A stretch of DNA of 64,000 nucleotides from an uncultured Clostridia bacterium (GTDB taxonomy: Bacteria > Bacillota > Clostridia > Christensenellales > UBA1242): assembly GCA_944372505.1 (NCBI GenBank), contig CALVZK010000001.1:321185-385184 (forward strand). The letters are read 5' to 3'. Below the pieces are notes generated by a model, which worked only from the letters and a program-made list of their open reading frames with translations, was not told the origin of the DNA and ran no database searches. Shown one piece after another: positions 421 to 43,430 of this stretch. The position numbers and the translations under genes are program-made. Every line of letters starts with the position of its first letter. Positions within the stretch are counted from its first letter, which is position 1.

Positions 421-2322
421 TTAAGAAGTAATTAAAACTATAGTACTCCCTTTTGCAATTTCCGTCCCTACTGGAGGTAATTGATTTATTATTATTTCGC
501 CATCTCCATCAATCTCATAATAAATACCTAGATTCTTTAAAATTACCGCACCTTCTGTTAAACTTTTGTCTATCAAATCTGGCATAGTAACATATTCAAT
601 TTTAACATTTTCATCTTGCTTTGGTTCATTTAAATATTCAAATAAGTTTTGAAAAACCTCTTTGCCATAGGGAGCTGCAACAATACTCCCATAATAAGCC
701 CCTGCACTAGGTTCATTGACCATTATATAAACTATATATTTTGGATTGTCTGCTGGGTAGGTACCTATAAAACTTGATATATATTTTCCTTGATCAATTC
801 CTCCCGTTTCTTTGTATTTTTGAGCCGTTCCTGTTTTTCCTCCAACATTATATCCCTCTACAAAAGTGTACTTTCCAGTTTTATTTTCTGCACATTCTAA
901 AAGATAATTTACTTTGCTAGCTGTATCATTACTTATAATATTACTTCTGGAACTAGATTGAATTGATTTTATTATCTCATTATTTTCATCACATACATAA
1001 TCTAAAACATGTGGAGAATTAAAAGTACCTCCATTAACTATTGTTGATACAGCAGTTAAAAGTTGCATAGGGGTAACGGCAATAGCATGACCAAAGCCCA
1101 TTCTGGCCAAGTCTACGTTTTTAACAGATGATTTTGCCATGAGCATACCGCTTGCCTCTCCAGAAATATCAACTCCCGTTTTTTCCCCTAAACCAAATTT
1201 TTCCATGTATTGATAAAATTTATCCACTCCTAATCTTAATGCAAGATCCATAAAACAACAGTTACAAGAATTTGAGAATGCCTCTACTAATGTTTGAGAG
1301 CCATGTCCTAAAGTTTTCCAACATTTAATTTTAACTCCATCAATAATTCTATATCCTGGACAATAAAATTTATCATCTAAAGAAACAAGACCTTCTTCCA
1401 AAGCTGCAGCAACAGTTAATATTTTAAAAGTTGACCCTGGCTCATATATATCTGTAACTGCTTTAACTTTACTTTGTTCAAATAATTCTTCTATATTGTC
1501 TCTAGGAATTTCATTTAAATCAAAACTTGGTTTATTAGATAACGCAAGGATTTCATTTGTCTGTGCATTTAAAATCATTCCTGTAACAGATTTTGCCTTT
1601 TGTTCGTCCATGATTTTTTCTAAAGCTTTTTCAAGTATTAACTCCATATTACTATCAATTGTTAGATGCAAATCGTAACCTTTTTGTGCTGAAATATAAT
1701 ATCTTAAACTTCCCCCTATTTCTTTACCTTGTAGATCACTTTGTACATAGCTACAACCGTCTATTCCCTTTAAATAATCATTATAATATGCTTCTATACC
1801 GCTTTGTCCAACATTATCAATACTGATAAATCCTAAAACTTGAGTTAAAAGATTACCATATGGATAATATCTATTTGATGTTTCTGCTAAATACACTCCG
1901 CTATAATGTTTATTATATATTTTTTCTGCAACTTCTCCATCTACCTGCATCTTAATTAAGACTTCGCTAACAGTTTTATCAGTTATTTTTTGATATATAT
2001 TGCCGAACGTTAAGCCTAATTCACTTGACAGCAAGTATGCAACTTCTGAAGCATTTGTAACTTCTCTTGCTCTAACATATACATTATAAGTTGTATAACT
2101 AACAGCTATAGTATTTCCAGTGCTGTCCAAAATAGAGCCTCTTGGAGCAATTATAGATAAATCCCTTGTCCACTGATCAGTAGCTTTACTCTGTAAAGAT
2201 TTCCCATTAATAATTTGCACAACAAATAACCTAACAACTAATGCACAAAAAATAAAGGATATTACAAGTGTAATTGCTAATATCCTTCTTTTTAATGAAT
2301 ATGTTGTGCTGGTTTTTTGCAA
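421..2322 (-). CDS. Class B penicillin-binding protein with C-terminal PASTA domain (SpoVD/FtsI type)
   Basis: A 633-residue peptidoglycan transpeptidase that cross-links stem peptides at the outer membrane face during division or sporulation. A single N-terminal anchor spans about residues 14-36, followed by a PBP dimerisation domain (about 55-215). The transpeptidase domain has all three active-site motifs: S297-TFK, S352-C-N354 and K496-T-G. One PASTA domain fills about residues 575-633, as in SpoVD and some FtsI/PBP2B homologues. The start codon is TTG: the protein begins MQKTSTTYSLKRR, and its GGAGG lies inside the last two Gly codons of the upstream FtsL-like gene, so translation is probably coupled. 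Position after rsmH and the FtsL-like gene matches the dcw cluster. SpoVD versus PBP2B/FtsI cannot be decided from sequence alone; murE and mraY do not follow. Confidence 0.93.
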   Translation of the reverse strand: MQKTSTTYSLKRRILAITLVISFIFCALVVRLFVVQIINGKSLQSKATDQWTRDLSIIAPRGSILDSTGNTIAVSYTTYNVYVRAREVTNASEVAYLLSSELGLTFGNIYQKITDKTVSEVLIKMQVDGEVAEKIYNKHYSGVYLAETSNRYYPYGNLLTQVLGFISIDNVGQSGIEAYYNDYLKGIDGCSYVQSDLQGKEIGGSLRYYISAQKGYDLHLTIDSNMELILEKALEKIMDEQKAKSVTGMILNAQTNEILALSNKPSFDLNEIPRDNIEELFEQSKVKAVTDIYEPGSTFKILTVAAALEEGLVSLDDKFYCPGYRIIDGVKIKCWKTLGHGSQTLVEAFSNSCNCCFMDLALRLGVDKFYQYMEKFGLGEKTGVDISGEASGMLMAKSSVKNVDLARMGFGHAIAVTPMQLLTAVSTIVNGGTFNSPHVLDYVCDENNEIIKSIQSSSRSNIISNDTASKVNYLLECAENKTGKYTFVEGYNVGGKTGTAQKYKETGGIDQGKYISSFIGTYPADNPKYIVYIMVNEPSAGAYYGSIVAAPYGKEVFQNLFEYLNEPKQDENVKIEYVTMPDLIDKSLTEGAVILKNLGIYYEIDGDGEIIINQLPPVGTEIAKGSTIVLITS

Positions 2323-37447: not shown

Positions 37448-39406
37448 TTATTTTTTGTTTTTATCTAATCTTTTTCTTAATGTTTGAATTTGATTTCTTA
37501 ATTCTATTGCACGTTCAAAATCAAGAGCACCTGAAGCTATCTTCATCATTGCAGTTAATTTTTCGATTTCTGCCGGTATATCTTCTAATTTTATTTTTTT
37601 ATCATCAATCTTCTTTGTTATTTCAAGTGAATTTTTAATTTCCTTTACAATAGTTTTAGGTATAATGCCAAATTTCTTGTTGTGATTTTCTTGAATCTCT
37701 CGTCTTTTTAATGTTATATCAATAGCTCTTTTCATAGAATCGGTAATTACATCAGCATACATAATGACTCTACCATTACTATTGCGCGCTGCTCTACCAA
37801 TTGTTTGTATCAATGCTCCTTCACTACGTAAAAATCCTTCTTTATCGGCATCTAAAATCGCAACTAATTCGACTTCTGGCATATCGAGTCCTTCCCTTAA
37901 CAAATTAATGCCAACTAAAACGTCAAACTCTCCTTTTCTTAGTCCATTTATAATCTCAACTCTTTCCATTGTATCAATTTCTGAATGCATGTATTTACAT
38001 TTAAAGCCATGTTCTTGAAGATAAAGTGTTAAACTTTCAGCCATTTTCTTTGTTAAAGTTGTTACTAAAACTCTTGAATTATTTTCTATAGTTTCTTTTA
38101 TTTGTTTCATTAAATCTTCAATTTGATTTTTTATGGGTTTTACTTCTACTACAGGATCTAATAATCCCGTTGGTCTAATCACTTGCTCCACAACTTGTCC
38201 CGCTCTTGACAATTCATAATTACTAGGCGTAGCAGATACATATAAAACTTGTTTTAATTTACTATTAAATTCATCAAAAGTTAAAGGTCTATTATCTTTT
38301 GCCGCTTCTAGACGGAATCCATATTCTACCAAAGACTGTTTTCTCGCCTTGTCTCCATTGTACATTGCTCTTATTTGAGGTAAAGTCATGTGACTTTCAT
38401 CAATTATAGTTAAAAAATCTTTTGGAAAATAATCAATTAATGTGTATGGAGCTTCTCCAGGCTGTCTTCCATCAAAATATCTAGAATAATTTTCAATACC
38501 ACTACAATAACCAACCTCTTTCATCATTTCTTCATCATATGCAACTCTTTGTCCTATTCTTTCTGCTTCTATAAGTTTTCCCTGCTTTTCAAAATCTTTT
38601 ATTGCAATTAATCGGTCTTTTTCAATCTCCTCCAATGCCTTATCCATTCTTTCTCTTCCAACAGCATAATGAGTTGCAGGATATATTGCCACATATTTTA
38701 ATTCATTTAATAAATTTCCAGTAATAGGATCAAAATTATAAATTTTTTCTATTTCATCACCAAAAAATTGAATTTTAACAGCAAGCTCTGATTGATTGGC
38801 AGGGAATATATCTAATATATCTCCCTTAACTCTAAAAGTAGATCTTTTAAAATCTAAGTCATTTCTTGTATATTGTATATCTATTAACCTAGAAATAACG
38901 TCGTCTCGGTCTATGATATCTCCCTCTCTCAAAGAAATATGAAGATTATAATATTCATTTGGATTTCCCAATCCATATATACAAGATACAGAAGCTACTA
39001 TAATTACATCGTTTCTCTCTAAAATTGATGATGTCGCACTAGATCTAAGTTTATCAATTTCATCATTAATTGACATATCTTTTTCTATGTAAGTATCAGT
39101 AGAAACAATATATGCTTCTGGCTGATAATAATCATAATAAGATACAAAATATTCAACTCTATTATTTGGAAAAAATTCTCTAAATTCATTACATAATTGT
39201 GCGGCTAAAGTTTTATTGTGTGCAATAACTAATGTGGGCTTTTGCATTTTTTTTATTAAATTGGCCATAGTGAAAGTCTTGCCACTACCTGTGACTCCTA
39301 ACAAAACTTGCTCTTTCAACCCCTCTTTAAAGCCATCTTCTAATTTATTTATTGCCTGTGACTGATCACCTGCTGGTTTATATTTCGAAATAAGTTCAAA
39401 ATCCAT
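37448..39406 (-). CDS. uvrB: Excinuclease ABC subunit B
   Basis: 652 residues. Damage-verifying helicase-like subunit of nucleotide excision repair that hands DNA to UvrC. Visible: Walker A GVTGSGKT (37-44), the beta-hairpin [62 protein letters not shown] and QTIGRAARN (motif VI), and a C-terminal UVR helix pair ([21 protein letters not shown]). CGGAG lies before the ATG. uvrC is not in the window. Confidence 0.98.
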
Positions 39407-39459
39407 TTTTTCTCCGTTTATTCCTAATTTATTATAACACCATTTTTTAAAATATAAAA

Positions 39460-39828
39460 CTATTTAAAGATTGCTTTAAGTATTAAACCAAACACAAAAC
39501 TGACGATTGCTAAAAAAATACTTCTTAATACAAGCATATAAAGGGATTTTTTTGCCTTTTTAGCATCAATTAAATATGTTTGCCCTTTTTTTTTCAATTT
39601 AACGCAATAGAAATAACCATTTTTACTATCAGAGATAACAAAATCAATATAATTTTGCAAAGACAAACTTGCCATAATTTCATCAATTTCATTTATAGAT
39701 AAAACAATTTTTTTGCAAACATCTTTAGCAATATCATGTGGAGAAATTAAGCATGTCTTTTTGCCAGAGCATACTTTACATAAATATTTTAGAACAATTT
39801 TTTCTTTACGTTCAGGCAAATCTGTCAT
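39460..39828 (-). CDS. Small protein with N-terminal helix domain and C-terminal membrane helix
   Basis: 122 residues. The first 90 look like a winged-helix-type domain ([28 protein letters not shown]...[17 protein letters not shown]), followed by [33 protein letters not shown], a C-terminal membrane helix. The protein at 42353-42727 shows the same layout and similar spacing (EKIVLKYL / [27 protein letters not shown] / CISIKYDDNNTYCLCVL), so they are paralogues. No Shine-Dalgarno; AATAAT lies 6 nt before the ATG, a weak leaderless candidate. Function unknown; a membrane-tethered DNA-binding protein is possible. Confidence 0.65.
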
Positions 39829-39967
39829 TTAAAAATTATTTGCATTTAAACCTATATTTATACTTTATATTATTTTAATAGAATTATATTTATCTTTATA
39901 AAAACTATAAAAATTAAAATTATTAAAATAATTTTCTTAGGATTTTATGAAATTATTAAAAAAAACA

Positions 39968-39995
39968 TTGACAATTTTATAAAATATAGTATACT
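39968..39995 (+). promoter_or_regulatory. Consensus promoter of asnA
   Basis: TTGACA (39968-39973), 16 nt, TATACT (39990-39995). +1 is near 40002, giving a leader of about 255 nt that contains the attenuator described below. Confidence 0.75.
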
Positions 39996-40016
39996 AAAAA
40001 TATAAATGAGGAAAAA

Positions 40017-40073
40017 ATGATTAAATTTATTAATAATAACAACAATAATCTTGAACTTAAAATACATTTTTAA
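40017..40073 (+). CDS. Asparagine leader peptide of asnA
   Basis: An 18-residue peptide, MIKFINNNNNNLELKIHF, with GAGG 5 nt before the ATG. Residues 6-11 are six consecutive Asn (AAT AAT AAC AAC AAT AAT, 40032-40049). It lies directly after a consensus promoter and before an intrinsic terminator followed by asparagine synthetase. Leader peptides rich in the amino acid made by the operon are the hallmark of ribosome-mediated attenuation (compare his, trp and leu leaders). This is a strong candidate for the Asn sensor of asnA. Confidence 0.85.
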   Translation: MIKFINNNNNNLELKIHF

Positions 40074-40150
40074 ATGGATTTTCTTTTTATTGTTGTAAAA
40101 TAAATTAAATTATTAAGCACTTTCTGAAAATTCATGAAAGTGCTTTTTTT
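40074..40150 (+). promoter_or_regulatory. Attenuator: terminator and alternative pairing ahead of asnA
   Basis: Terminator: AAGCACTTTC (40115-40124), 11-nt loop, GAAAGTGCTT (40136-40145), then T to 40150. Alternative pairings: 40074-40083 (ATGGATTTTC) can pair with 40126-40135 (GAAAATTCAT) in the terminator loop over 10 bp with one G-T, enclosing the terminator's left arm; 40087-40096 is an exact 10-nt complement of the Asn codons 40039-40048. Stalling on the Asn codons would leave 40074-40083 free; a ribosome at the stop codon (40071-40073) would cover it and allow termination. Confidence 0.75.
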
Positions 40151-40165
40151 AAAAAAGGAGATATT

Positions 40166-40219
40166 ATGAAAATTATCAATGCCGTAGCGGGCGAATACGT
40201 TATTTTTATTATTAATTAA
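40166..40219 (+). CDS. Second small frame between attenuator and asnA
   Basis: 17 residues, MKIINAVAGEYVIFIIN, with AAGGAG 5 nt before ATG. It lies between the terminator and asnA. The context AAGGAGA..TATTATGAAA is nearly the same as that of asnA itself, as if the initiation region had been duplicated. Two Asn codons, one just before the stop. It may be a translational leader or a non-functional relic. Confidence 0.5.
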   Translation: MKIINAVAGEYVIFIIN

Positions 40220-40255
40220 TTGTTTATTTATATTAAATTTAAAAGGAGAAATATT

Positions 40256-41251
40256 ATGAAATACATAAAGGAAAAATATATAAAACTAGACATATTAGAA
40301 AAACAAAAATATATCAAATTAATAAAAGATAAATTCGAAAAATTATTATCAAAAAAATTAGATTTAACGAGAGTTTCTGCTCCATTATTTGTTACAAAAG
40401 AAAGTGGACTACAAGATGATTTAAGTGGAATAGAAAGAAAAGTTACATTTGACATATTGAAAGATGGGAAAGAGTTGGAAGTTGTACAATCTTTAGCAAA
40501 ATGGAAAAGATTTGCTTTAAAAAAATATCAATTCCCTATTTATAAAGGAATCTACACAGACATGATAGCAATTAGACGTGATGACAAGATGGATGAAATT
40601 CATTCAATTTATGTAGACCAATGGGATTGGGAAAAAATTATTAAAAAATCAGATAGAAATTTAGATTTTTTAAAAAAGACCGTACAAAAAATAGTTATGG
40701 CAATCATTGAAACAGAAAAATATATCAAAATTAAAGGATTCCCAGGAATAGACTTAAGTTCAAAAGTCTTTTTTATAACAAGTCAAAGCTTATTAGATAT
40801 GTATCCCGATAAAACTGAAAAAGAACGTGAATATTTAATAACAAAAAAATACAAAACTGTTTTTATAATGAAAATAGGACCTATACTCTCAAATGGAAAA
40901 CCTCATGATTCAAGGGCCCCAGATTACGATGATTGGAATTTAAACGGAGATTTGCTCTTCTATCACGAAGTTTTAGATATTGCACTTGAAATATCAAGCA
41001 TGGGGATAAGAGTTGACAAAACTAGTTTAATTAAACAGCTTGAAATTTCTGATAAAAAAGAAAGATTAAAATATGATTATCATAAAATGATTTTACAAGA
41101 TCAATTACCACTTACAATTGGTGGCGGAATTGGACAAAGTAGACTATGCCAATTATTATTAGGGAGAATACATATAGGAGAAGTACAGGCTTCTTATTGG
41201 GATAAAGATACACTTTTGAAATGTAAAAAAGAAAAAATCGAATTACTTTAA
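40256..41251 (+). CDS. asnA: Aspartate-ammonia ligase (asparagine synthetase A)
   Basis: 331 residues, essentially the length of E. coli AsnA (330). It makes asparagine from aspartate, ammonia and ATP through an aspartyl-AMP intermediate and has a class II aminoacyl-tRNA synthetase fold. Signatures: TRVSAPLFVTKESGLQDDLSGIERKVTFDI, SLAKWKRFALKKYQF, YVDQWDWEKII, GPILSNGKPHDSRAPDYDDWNLNGDLLF and PLTIGGGIGQSRLCQLLL. The ATG at 40256 is chosen because AAAAGGAG lies upstream; an earlier in-frame start would only add hydrophobic codons. Regulated by a leader with Asn codons and a terminator. Confidence 0.97.
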   Translation: MKYIKEKYIKLDILEKQKYIKLIKDKFEKLLSKKLDLTRVSAPLFVTKESGLQDDLSGIERKVTFDILKDGKELEVVQSLAKWKRFALKKYQFPIYKGIYTDMIAIRRDDKMDEIHSIYVDQWDWEKIIKKSDRNLDFLKKTVQKIVMAIIETEKYIKIKGFPGIDLSSKVFFITSQSLLDMYPDKTEKEREYLITKKYKTVFIMKIGPILSNGKPHDSRAPDYDDWNLNGDLLFYHEVLDIALEISSMGIRVDKTSLIKQLEISDKKERLKYDYHKMILQDQLPLTIGGGIGQSRLCQLLLGRIHIGEVQASYWDKDTLLKCKKEKIELL

Positions 41252-41316: not shown

Positions 41317-42294
41317 ATGCAAAACCAAAACACAAGTTTAGAAAATCAACAATCTATAGCATATCAAACAAATTTACAAGAATTCAAAAATATTGATAAA
41401 AAACGCAAAAGATTGTCCTGTATTTCTGGGTGTAAATCACTGATTAAAGATTTAAACAGACAAATAGATTTAGATTTTATTAAAGAAAGCGAAGAAATTG
41501 AAGGCAATTTTAACAATTATATTATGAAATTGTTAAAAAAACCTGAAATAAAAATAATTCACGCTTTACCAAAAGAAGCTCTTTTTGTTGATAAGGCAAA
41601 TTCAAATACAGAACAACAAAGTGAAATTTTAAAAGGAATTTTTAAAAAAACATCAATATATGCACTATACGAACCACTACAATTACAAATAAAATTAAAT
41701 CTTAAAAATCATCTTTATTCTTTGGAAAAAATATTTGACAAAGCAAAAAAATCAAAGTTAAAAAGACATAAAACAGGTAAATTTGATCCTTTAACTCATG
41801 CGGATATATTAGAAACAAATCTTTATCTCGACGAAAAAGAGGATATACTTTCTGAATTCGGGAGATATAGATCCCCTTATACGGGTTCATTTACAAATGT
41901 TAAAGGAGCTACATGGGTTCCTGTTAGTAATGCACGTGTTAGCGAAAGCATGGATGCTCTACTAGAATGGTATAATAATCAATCAATAAATTTACATCCG
42001 ATAATTAGAGCTGCCATTTTACATGCTGAATTTATACGAATACATCCTTTTGCAGATGGAAATGGTAGAACTGCAAGATTATTAATGAATTATGAACTAA
42101 TTAGAAATGGTTATCCATCTGTAATCATTAAAGCTAGAGATAAAGATCGATATTTTAATGCATTAAACACAGCAATAATTACAAAAGATGTAACAGATTT
42201 AGTTAAATTAATAGAAGAAGCATGTAATGAAACTGCAGATAAATATTTAGAAATAATAAAGTCAAAAAAAGAATTTGAAAAAGAAAACGAATAA
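41317..42294 (+). CDS. Fic-domain AMP-transferase-type protein with N-terminal inhibitory motif
   Basis: 325 residues. The active-site loop H243-PFADGNGRTAR254 has all Fic residues (catalytic His, Asp and Arg), so it should transfer AMP or another NMP to hydroxyl groups of a target protein. An inhibitory helix motif [S/T]xxxE[G/N] occurs as S58-EEIE-G63 in the N-terminal part, which makes it a self-inhibited class II Fic protein. The central helical part (100-190) is variable. AGGAG lies before the ATG. Target unknown; there is no separate antitoxin gene, which agrees with the built-in inhibitor. Confidence 0.93.
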   Translation: MQNQNTSLENQQSIAYQTNLQEFKNIDKKRKRLSCISGCKSLIKDLNRQIDLDFIKESEEIEGNFNNYIMKLLKKPEIKIIHALPKEALFVDKANSNTEQQSEILKGIFKKTSIYALYEPLQLQIKLNLKNHLYSLEKIFDKAKKSKLKRHKTGKFDPLTHADILETNLYLDEKEDILSEFGRYRSPYTGSFTNVKGATWVPVSNARVSESMDALLEWYNNQSINLHPIIRAAILHAEFIRIHPFADGNGRTARLLMNYELIRNGYPSVIIKARDKDRYFNALNTAIITKDVTDLVKLIEEACNETADKYLEIIKSKKEFEKENE

Positions 42295-42352: not shown

Positions 42353-42727
42353 ATGTTAGAACAAAAATCTAAACTGGTTTTAAAATTTTTAATACAAGAA
42401 TGCCCAAATGGCTCTTACAAAATCATAGAGGCTAAGGATATAATTTCATCAATGCCAATAAAATATAAAATGGATTATGAGGCATTTGATAATATTTTAT
42501 CATATTTAGAAAGACAAGATTGTATTTCAATTAAGTATGATGATAATAATACTTACTGTCTTTGTGTACTGCCACTAGGTTATGAAATATTTGAAAATGA
42601 AATAAAAAATAAAAAAGAGGATAAAAAATCCTCTAATCTATGGTTAATTTTAATAATTAATCTATTAATTTCTTTTGCGGGAGCTGTTTTGGGGACAGTG
42701 ATTGCACATATTCTAATCCCTCTTTAA
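42353..42727 (+). CDS. Small protein with N-terminal helix domain and C-terminal membrane helix (paralogue)
   Basis: 124 residues. Same layout as the protein at 39460-39828: an N-terminal helical domain (KSKLVLKFLIQECPNGSYKIIEAKDIISSMPIKYKMDYEAFDNILSYLERQDCISIKYDD) and a C-terminal membrane helix (LWLILIINLLISFAGAVLGTVIAHILIPL). The two copies flank asnA and fic in opposite orientation. No clear ribosome site. Its 3' end overlaps that of the convergent radC gene by 71 bp. Function unknown. Confidence 0.62.
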   Translation: MLEQKSKLVLKFLIQECPNGSYKIIEAKDIISSMPIKYKMDYEAFDNILSYLERQDCISIKYDDNNTYCLCVLPLGYEIFENEIKNKKEDKKSSNLWLILIINLLISFAGAVLGTVIAHILIPL

Positions 42728-43430
42728 AAACTCTTGTGTGCCTATCATTTGTCATGCTATAAATACCATCTATTCCAACAATGACCGAATCAGCTAGCTC
42801 ACAACCAGAAAATTTAAATTTGCCTTTAAGATCTTCAAAAGAATTTTTGTCTTGAGCGGAAGGGATACAAAGTCCATTTGGATGATTGTGAACAACAAAT
42901 ACAGCGCTAACTTTATAAGTAGAAATAAATAAAGCAATTTCTTTTAGATTTAAACTAACAAAATTGTTAGTTCCTTTTCCATACCTTCTACCATTAATAA
43001 TTTCTCCCGCATTATTAACTCCAAAAATATAGAGCTCTTCTTCTTGTTTGTAACGCAAAATTTGTTCAAGGTGATCATAAAACTCTCCAATTGTTTTGAT
43101 GCCTTGTTTATTAAAAGTTTTTTCAAAAGAATAGTAAAAAAAGATTTCAAGTAGGGAGTGCAACTTTTTAGCAGAAGCATCTCCCATACCTCTAACCTGT
43201 TTAAGATCTTCGATGGAAGCCTCTAAAATAGTAGGGATATCATTAAACCGTTCAAGAAGCCTATGGGCAAGAGGGTTAACATCCGCTCTAGGGAAGATGA
43301 AGAAAAGAATATATTCCATAATTTGGATTTTACTCAATCCTTCAAGTCCTACCATAGAGACAGTATCTATTAATCTCCCCCTATGCCCATCATGGATACT
43401 TTTGTTTGAAAAAGTTTTTGATTCTTTCAA
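42657..43430 (-). CDS. radC: RadC-family JAMM-domain protein
   Basis: 257 residues from a TTG start after AAGGAGAA. An N-terminal helix-hairpin-helix-like part (VRGMGDASAKKLHSLLEI) is followed by a JAMM/MPN+ metal domain, H181-N-H183-PNGLCIP-S191-AQ-D194, complete for zinc binding. RadC proteins are widely distributed but their enzymatic role is unresolved; they are often carried on mobile DNA. The usual DHIIVG near the end reads ADSVIVG. It overlaps the convergent neighbour. A broken relative lies at 27330-28061. Confidence 0.88.
   Translation of the reverse strand: MKESKTFSNKSIHDGHRGRLIDTVSMVGLEGLSKIQIMEYILFFIFPRADVNPLAHRLLERFNDIPTILEASIEDLKQVRGMGDASAKKLHSLLEIFFYYSFEKTFNKQGIKTIGEFYDHLEQILRYKQEEELYIFGVNNAGEIINGRRYGKGTNNFVSLNLKEIALFISTYKVSAVFVVHNHPNGLCIPSAQDKNSFEDLKGKFKFSGCELADSVIVGIDGIYSMTNDRHTRVFKEGLEYVQSLSPKQLPQKKLID

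Follow-up and report, generated by a model that had tools for sequence, protein, structure and literature searches.

A putative asparagine-codon leader-peptide attenuator upstream of asnA and related leaders in a Clostridia lineage

The leader-peptide model of transcription attenuation is set out in the abstract of PMC1183508. The leader described below shares with trp and his attenuators a codon-rich short open reading frame (ORF) and a terminator, and it is predicted to use mutually exclusive RNA pairings with ribosome position as the signal. Within the Firmicutes, bacilli have histidine leader peptides ahead of hisS paralogs, a case of leader-peptide control that includes tRNA synthetase genes and concerns another amino acid (His versus Asn here; PMC2965389). 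Listeria and Staphylococcus aureus likewise have leader peptides, in attenuators for Ile/Leu, which differ in their branched-chain amino acids and in their genes (PMC5864092, PMC5794164). By word count, the string 'asparagin' is absent from the main text of PMC2965389 and from PMC1262725, as is 'asnA' from PMC2494555, and PMC5009743 contains both 'asparagine codons' and 'leader peptide'. The original prediction for this locus knew of no described asparagine leader-peptide attenuator, and we found none for Asn or Gln in the open-licence PMC literature, a body of text without most subscription journals. T-box leaders, too, respond to the charging state of tRNA and regulate genes for tRNA synthetases. 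They bind tRNA directly, without a leader peptide, and none was found at the poly-Asn loci scanned here.

Here we analyzed a window, meaning the whole 64,000-nucleotide stretch of DNA, from an uncultured Clostridia genome of 1.23 Mb. Upstream of asnA lies what is very probably a transcription attenuator in which a translating ribosome senses the supply of charged tRNA(Asn). By sequence, it has a short ORF after a promoter, a run of cognate codons and a terminator before the gene. It differs from trp/his attenuators in its codons (Asn here, Asn/Asp or Gln in sister loci), in an antiterminator that covaries with the terminator loop and not with the 5' arm, and in a second conserved ORF after the terminator. 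Because the loop appears to be targeted in place of the 5' arm, we class the asnA leader as a variant of the trp/his type. Asparagine, and probably glutamine too, would thereby join the amino acids sensed by leader peptides.

The asnA leader of the window

The original prediction had placed a promoter, an 18-codon frame with a Shine-Dalgarno sequence and six Asn codons, a terminator hairpin with a T tract, two complementary strands and an asparagine synthetase gene in this region, and each was recovered base for base at its position. ORF2, between the terminator and asnA, was absent from its list. The features, all on the forward strand, are as follows:

39968–39995 (+): promoter, TTGACA–16 bases–TATACT, a consensus match only (11 of 12)
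40017–40073 (+): ORF1, leader peptide MIKFINNNNNNLELKIHF followed by a stop codon; from sequence and counterparts in relatives
40032–40049 (+): six Asn codons, the proposed sensor
40074–40083 (+): putative antiterminator strand ATGGATTTTC; from terminator-loop pairing and swap tests
40087–40096 (+): anti-Asn-codon strand, the exact complement of 40039–40048
40115–40150 (+): predicted intrinsic terminator; from sequence and paired changes in relatives
40166–40219 (+): ORF2, MKIINAVAGEYVIFIIN followed by a stop codon, with Shine-Dalgarno AGGAG; kept at 11 of 13 clear asnA leaders
40178–40195 (+): AATGCC-GTAGCG-GGCGAA element within ORF2
40256–41251 (+): asnA, aspartate–ammonia ligase; PF03590 and TIGR00669 above cut-off

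The −35 (TTGACA, 39968–39973) and −10 (TATACT, 39990–39995) hexamers are separated by a spacer of 16, and ORF1, whose translatability is judged by sequence, has 18 codons and an upstream Shine-Dalgarno GAGGA. Its Asn codons read AAT AAT AAC AAC AAT AAT. The terminator stem consists of 10 perfect base pairs (40115–40124 with 40136–40145) followed by a T tract, and encloses an 11-base loop (40125–40135), of which 40126–40135 can pair with 40074–40083 over 10 bp with one G-U. A simple terminator scanner with a loop limit of 8, against 11 here, reported no site in the leader stretch. The nearest listed ORF upstream of the leader is on the opposite strand.

Six-Asn ATG ORFs of 8–60 codons arose in none of 4,000 dinucleotide shuffles of 39830–40256, and no second ATG ORF of this length with at least five consecutive Asn codons occurs on either strand of the 64 kb. 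The leader as a whole folds just slightly better than its shuffled versions (z −1.92, with 10 of 200 as good); the strong evidence for the leader is comparative.

Leaders in relatives and at other genes

AsnA was found in 23 of 197 genomes of the window's family, and the upstream sequence was inspected for all 23. A short ORF with 5–8 Asn codons, followed by a terminator, precedes the gene in 13 of them, the window included (L001 and L003–L014); in L006 and L012 a single non-Asn codon breaks the run. Two further loci carry variants (NNNNSNNN in L021, NNNANN in L015), two are doubtful (L017 and L022), five have no poly-Asn leader (L016, L018, L019, L020 and L023), and L002 falls outside this judgement, with merely 24 bases before its ATG. 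The Asn run is thus kept together with the terminator in relatives, as attenuation would have it. A leader pattern search matched 13 of the 197 genomes and its reversed control three (G056, G073 and G192). Of the matches to this pattern and to the ORF2 motif described below, L034 and L125 were rejected as lying within coding sequence. Among the best 80 of 588 confirmed AsnA relatives from named genomes, one had the leader (L038) and four a T-box-like motif by a simple pattern. Five leaders (L004, L005, L006, L009 and L014) have a second hairpin between the first terminator and ORF2, and in L004 it is this second hairpin, and not the first, that carries a T tract; these are possibly tandem terminators. 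Within the window's genus, asnA is absent from all 17 other genomes listed, so that either a gain together with the leader or losses elsewhere could account for its presence in the window genome alone.

A first covariance model, built from 11 leaders, matched 37 of the 197 family genomes at E ≤ 0.1. Inspection found a poly-Asn leader in 33 of these 37, some runs being mixed with Asp codons; the remaining four were a false match (G161), an ambiguous one (G187) and two Gln leaders (G035 and G192). The inspected set excludes G047:C2:223485-223607; matches opposite in strand to known leaders (G094, G164 and G061) were set aside, L167, L168 and L172 were rejected on inspection and L171 is ambiguous. 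Besides asnA, the genes behind these leaders encode aspartate–tRNA(Asn)-type ligases (L144, L145 and L149 above the cut-off of the NCBIfam PRK05159 model; L027, L148, L150, L151, L154 and L164 by sequence resemblance), bacterial aspartyl-tRNA synthetases (L143, L146 and L152 by NCBIfam; L153, L155, L156 and L157 by resemblance) and GatC (L158 by NCBIfam; L159, L166, L169, L170 and L173 by resemblance); the sequence of L165 stops before its downstream gene. A second model, built from 29 leaders, found G118 and G131, both missed by the first. Two genomes belonging to the window's own genus were gained with it, one with gatC downstream (L209, by resemblance) and one with an aspartyl-tRNA synthetase (L210, by resemblance) behind a run of mostly Asp codons (VNVNDDDD). 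At L163, a poly-Asn leader and ORF2 precede a 261-residue protein (891–1673, reverse strand) without a Pfam or NCBIfam match.

The leader thus appears to belong to a regulon that reaches beyond asnA alone, and the regulon genes can feed Asn-tRNA(Asn), directly or via amidation of Asp-tRNA(Asn), which would put several supply genes under one kind of switch. Asparaginyl-tRNA synthetase is above cut-off in 37 of 43 genomes tested, the window genome included, and therefore free asparagine can be charged. No T-box and no poly-Asn leader lies just upstream of the ligase–asnS operon of the window genome; in G012 and G082 a T-box stands immediately before the ligase–asnS pair.

To look beyond the family, 297 genomes were drawn from the order and 331 from the class; these draws overlap, contain family members and were filtered more strictly than the family search. 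They gave L161 and L162 (order) and L211 and L212 (class), of which L161 (E 1.7e-5) speaks most strongly against a leader confined to the family. All four were rejected because they lack a poly-Asn ORF, leaving no convincing leader outside the family in these draws.

At L174, a weak match of the first model, a glutamine synthetase of type III is preceded by a run of five Gln codons (MKKIVFLQQQQQIYAYINI). Relatives of this enzyme occur in 23 of the 197 family genomes, and in seven of the 23 (L186, L187 and L199–L203) it is preceded by a short ORF with 3–5 consecutive Gln codons, then a TTGTTG-type strand, then a hairpin with a T tract; these are likely Gln leader attenuators. Gln-codon leaders also precede MetRS-like proteins that score below methionine–tRNA ligase cut-offs at three places: L214 (identical with the place of L160), L215 and L217. 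A Gln-run pattern matched 17 places in 15 of the 197 genomes, and its control four (G008, G022, G026 and G036). L219–L224 are glutamine synthetase leaders described above, and L228 and L229 repeat L214 and L220. The places inspected were L214, L215, L217, L218 and L227, with L213, L216, L225 and L226 left out; L218 and L227 were rejected, as they appear to sit in coding sequence. A partner-swap test on ten Gln leaders, with the hairpin of L186 mis-picked, was weak (own duplexes −4.7 versus −4.0 ± 0.4; 224 of 5,000 as good), and we therefore make no claim of loop pairing for the Gln leaders.

The predicted antiterminator–loop contact and ORF2

In an alignment of 29 leaders to the model, 95.6% of cells pair, compared with 79.0% in shuffles, and 120 cells are changed on both sides, compared with 29.3, figures that are favored by an alignment fitted to the structure. 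Both-side changes affect 11 of 12 terminator stem pairs and three of nine pairs of the Asn-codon helix. The antiterminator pairing stands outside the covariance model and was tested separately by partner swapping, using 37 of 38 chosen leaders (L154 left out, and L015, L017, L022, L171, L209 and L210 also excluded); the near-duplicates L158/L159 and L148/L164 were both retained, and for L004 the second, downstream hairpin was taken as the terminator. Own duplexes of antiterminator and loop region averaged −9.74 kcal/mol, compared with −6.72 ± 0.32 for permuted partners, and none of 10,000 permutations, which ignore the relatedness of the leaders, was as good. Taken by part, the signal came from the loop (z −9.4; 0 of 2,000 permutations as good), with z −0.9 for the terminator 5' arm (345 of 2,000) and z −1.4 for the 3' arm (160 of 2,000). 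The loop contact noted in the original prediction is the covarying one, the terminator arms being without such a signal. Distant leaders use distinct matched pairs, ATGGATTTTC/GAAAATTCAT in the window, TTGAGTTATT/AATAACTCAA in L156 and GGTTTTTAT/ATAAAAACC in L150, and most asnA relatives have ATGGGTTTC in place of the window's antiterminator strand.

We calculated pairing states of the leader RNA with a ribosome modelled as covering ~15 bases from the A-site codon on. In free window RNA ending at 40136, antiterminator–loop pairing has probability 0.00 and the Asn-codon hairpin (40039–40048 with 40087–40096), which traps 40074–40083, has a computed probability of 0.95. A ribosome placed at Asn codon 1, 3 or 6 raises antiterminator–loop pairing to 0.99, and one at the stop codon leaves it at 0.00. 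Hiding the Asn codons in silico, a check proposed at the outset, replaced the predicted Asn-codon hairpin by antiterminator–loop pairing. A stalled ribosome still gives 0.88–0.93 in RNA ending at 40140, and once the RNA reaches 40144 the terminator prevails in all states calculated (terminator stem −14.2 versus antiterminator duplex −7.6 kcal/mol); the block must therefore be kinetic or steric. Of the 37 leaders, 30 have at least five expected antiterminator pairs in the stalled state and 10 have them in the free state; seven stay below five pairs with the ribosome stalled, and L148 shows no gain.

The ORF2 element comprises an Asn codon followed by a short GC-rich GCC/GGC hairpin. Its motif AAYGCCKTRRCRGGCGA occurs in 13 of the 197 genomes, 11 times at asnA and once before an aspartyl-tRNA synthetase (L027); the thirteenth (L034) is a chance match in coding sequence and was rejected as ORF2. 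The control gave no match among the matches listed. A looser pattern, requiring GGCG fully and GCC in part, was found at 16 of the 40 loci searched and was in frame in all 16. The motif codons are uncommon here: across 200 long ORFs at the loci analyzed, 12.6% of Ala codons are GCC and 23.7% of Gly codons are GGC. L145 has an altered ORF2 peptide with the GCC/GGC complement kept, and L146 has a longer stem, so that ORF2 conservation points to the RNA as well as the peptide. An anti-Shine-Dalgarno sequence follows ORF2 in L004, L005, L006, L009 and L014 (five of the 11 asnA loci with ORF2) and is absent from the window.

Competing readings and the setting of asnA

Under the attenuator model, ample Asn-tRNA would let the ribosome reach the ORF1 stop codon and cover 40074–40083, and the terminator would then end transcription ahead of asnA. 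When Asn-tRNA is scarce, the ribosome would stall at the Asn codons and leave 40087–40096 without a partner, so that 40074–40083 could pair with the loop of the terminator upon its emergence from the polymerase; this capture would delay or prevent closure of the terminator stem, and asnA would be transcribed. Without translation, the Asn codons would pair with 40087–40096, enclosing 40074–40083, and transcription would end. The elements, their conservation, the antiterminator–loop covariation and the predicted pairing states are results of the analysis, and we infer stalling, a kinetic or steric terminator block and a response to asparagine. The original proposal of ribosome-mediated attenuation draws support from the Asn run and terminator of relatives, the lack of a T-box at the loci scanned and the in silico pairing change. 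Against the model count the advantage of the nearly complete terminator in every calculated state, the leaders that pair poorly when stalled or already pair when free, the five asnA genes that lack the leader together with the two doubtful ones, and the ligase–asnS operon of the window genome with neither leader nor T-box just upstream.

Two readings would treat the Asn run as incidental. A chance product of an AT-rich genome would fit the base composition of this DNA and the prevalence of AAT, which supplies 63.9% of the Asn codons across the counted ORFs, and yet the run never appeared in the 4,000 shuffles, mixes AAT with AAC and is kept across many genomes together with the terminator and covariation; since the run is conserved in relatives, we regard this reading as refuted for practical purposes. 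Similarly implausible, in our view, is control of asnA by a T-box that binds tRNA(Asn) or by a riboswitch of some other known class. The family does have T-boxes: of 118 genomes, 98 show a match at E ≤ 0.001 and 56 one above cut-off, and the window genome has five matches. But the window has none at the gathering threshold, and 39400–40400 has none at E up to 5. Nor was any found at gathering in 20 asnA loci or 20 other loci (scans that leave out L002, L021, L027, L159, L164, L165, L170 and L173), so a T-box in the same leader, named beforehand as evidence against attenuation, was not found, and known RNA families gave no credible match in the window leader. Leader-peptide sensing of Asn would operate alongside T-boxes in this Gram-positive lineage.

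The remaining readings concern how the attenuator works. An antiterminator that competes for the terminator 5' arm, with an incidental loop contact, is the mode of trp and his attenuators, but the swap tests place the signal at the loop and found none at the 5' arm (−0.9) or 3' arm (−1.4), which makes this form improbable here and suggests antitermination by terminator-loop capture. A two-tier extension of the attenuator, with the poly-Asn terminator switch as the first step and control of the gene's translation by ORF2 and its hairpin as the second, is conceivable and in our view somewhat unlikely. In its favor, 11 of the 13 clear asnA leaders have the ORF2 motif, which also precedes some aspartyl-tRNA synthetase genes, Asn/Asp codons follow the motif at several loci, and the anti-Shine-Dalgarno of five of the 11 loci could hide the asnA Shine-Dalgarno. 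Against this, the window and the other five loci have no such sequence, the ORF2 hairpin has merely 3–5 bp, and L012 and L013 are without ORF2. Returning to the attenuator as a whole, we tentatively suggest that one Clostridia lineage might control both amide amino acids by leader-peptide attenuators, with Asn leaders on asnA, aspartyl-tRNA synthetases and gatC and Gln leaders on glutamine synthetase III and MetRS-like proteins, with antitermination by terminator-loop capture before stem closure, and with ORF2, an Asn codon abutting a conserved hairpin, as a translational checkpoint. The leader model and the ORF2 motif should be useful for annotating such uncultured genomes.

Downstream of asnA, the window encodes what we take to be a Fic-domain protein (41317–42294, forward strand) and, presumably, a RadC-like protein (42657–43430, reverse strand), each judged by motif. 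A single ORF of 6,769 residues with a lipoprotein-like start occupies 43447–63756 on the reverse strand. The asnA region is flanked by two small proteins (39460–39828, reverse strand, and 42353–42727, forward strand) that are alike in layout and share a hydrophobic C-terminal stretch.
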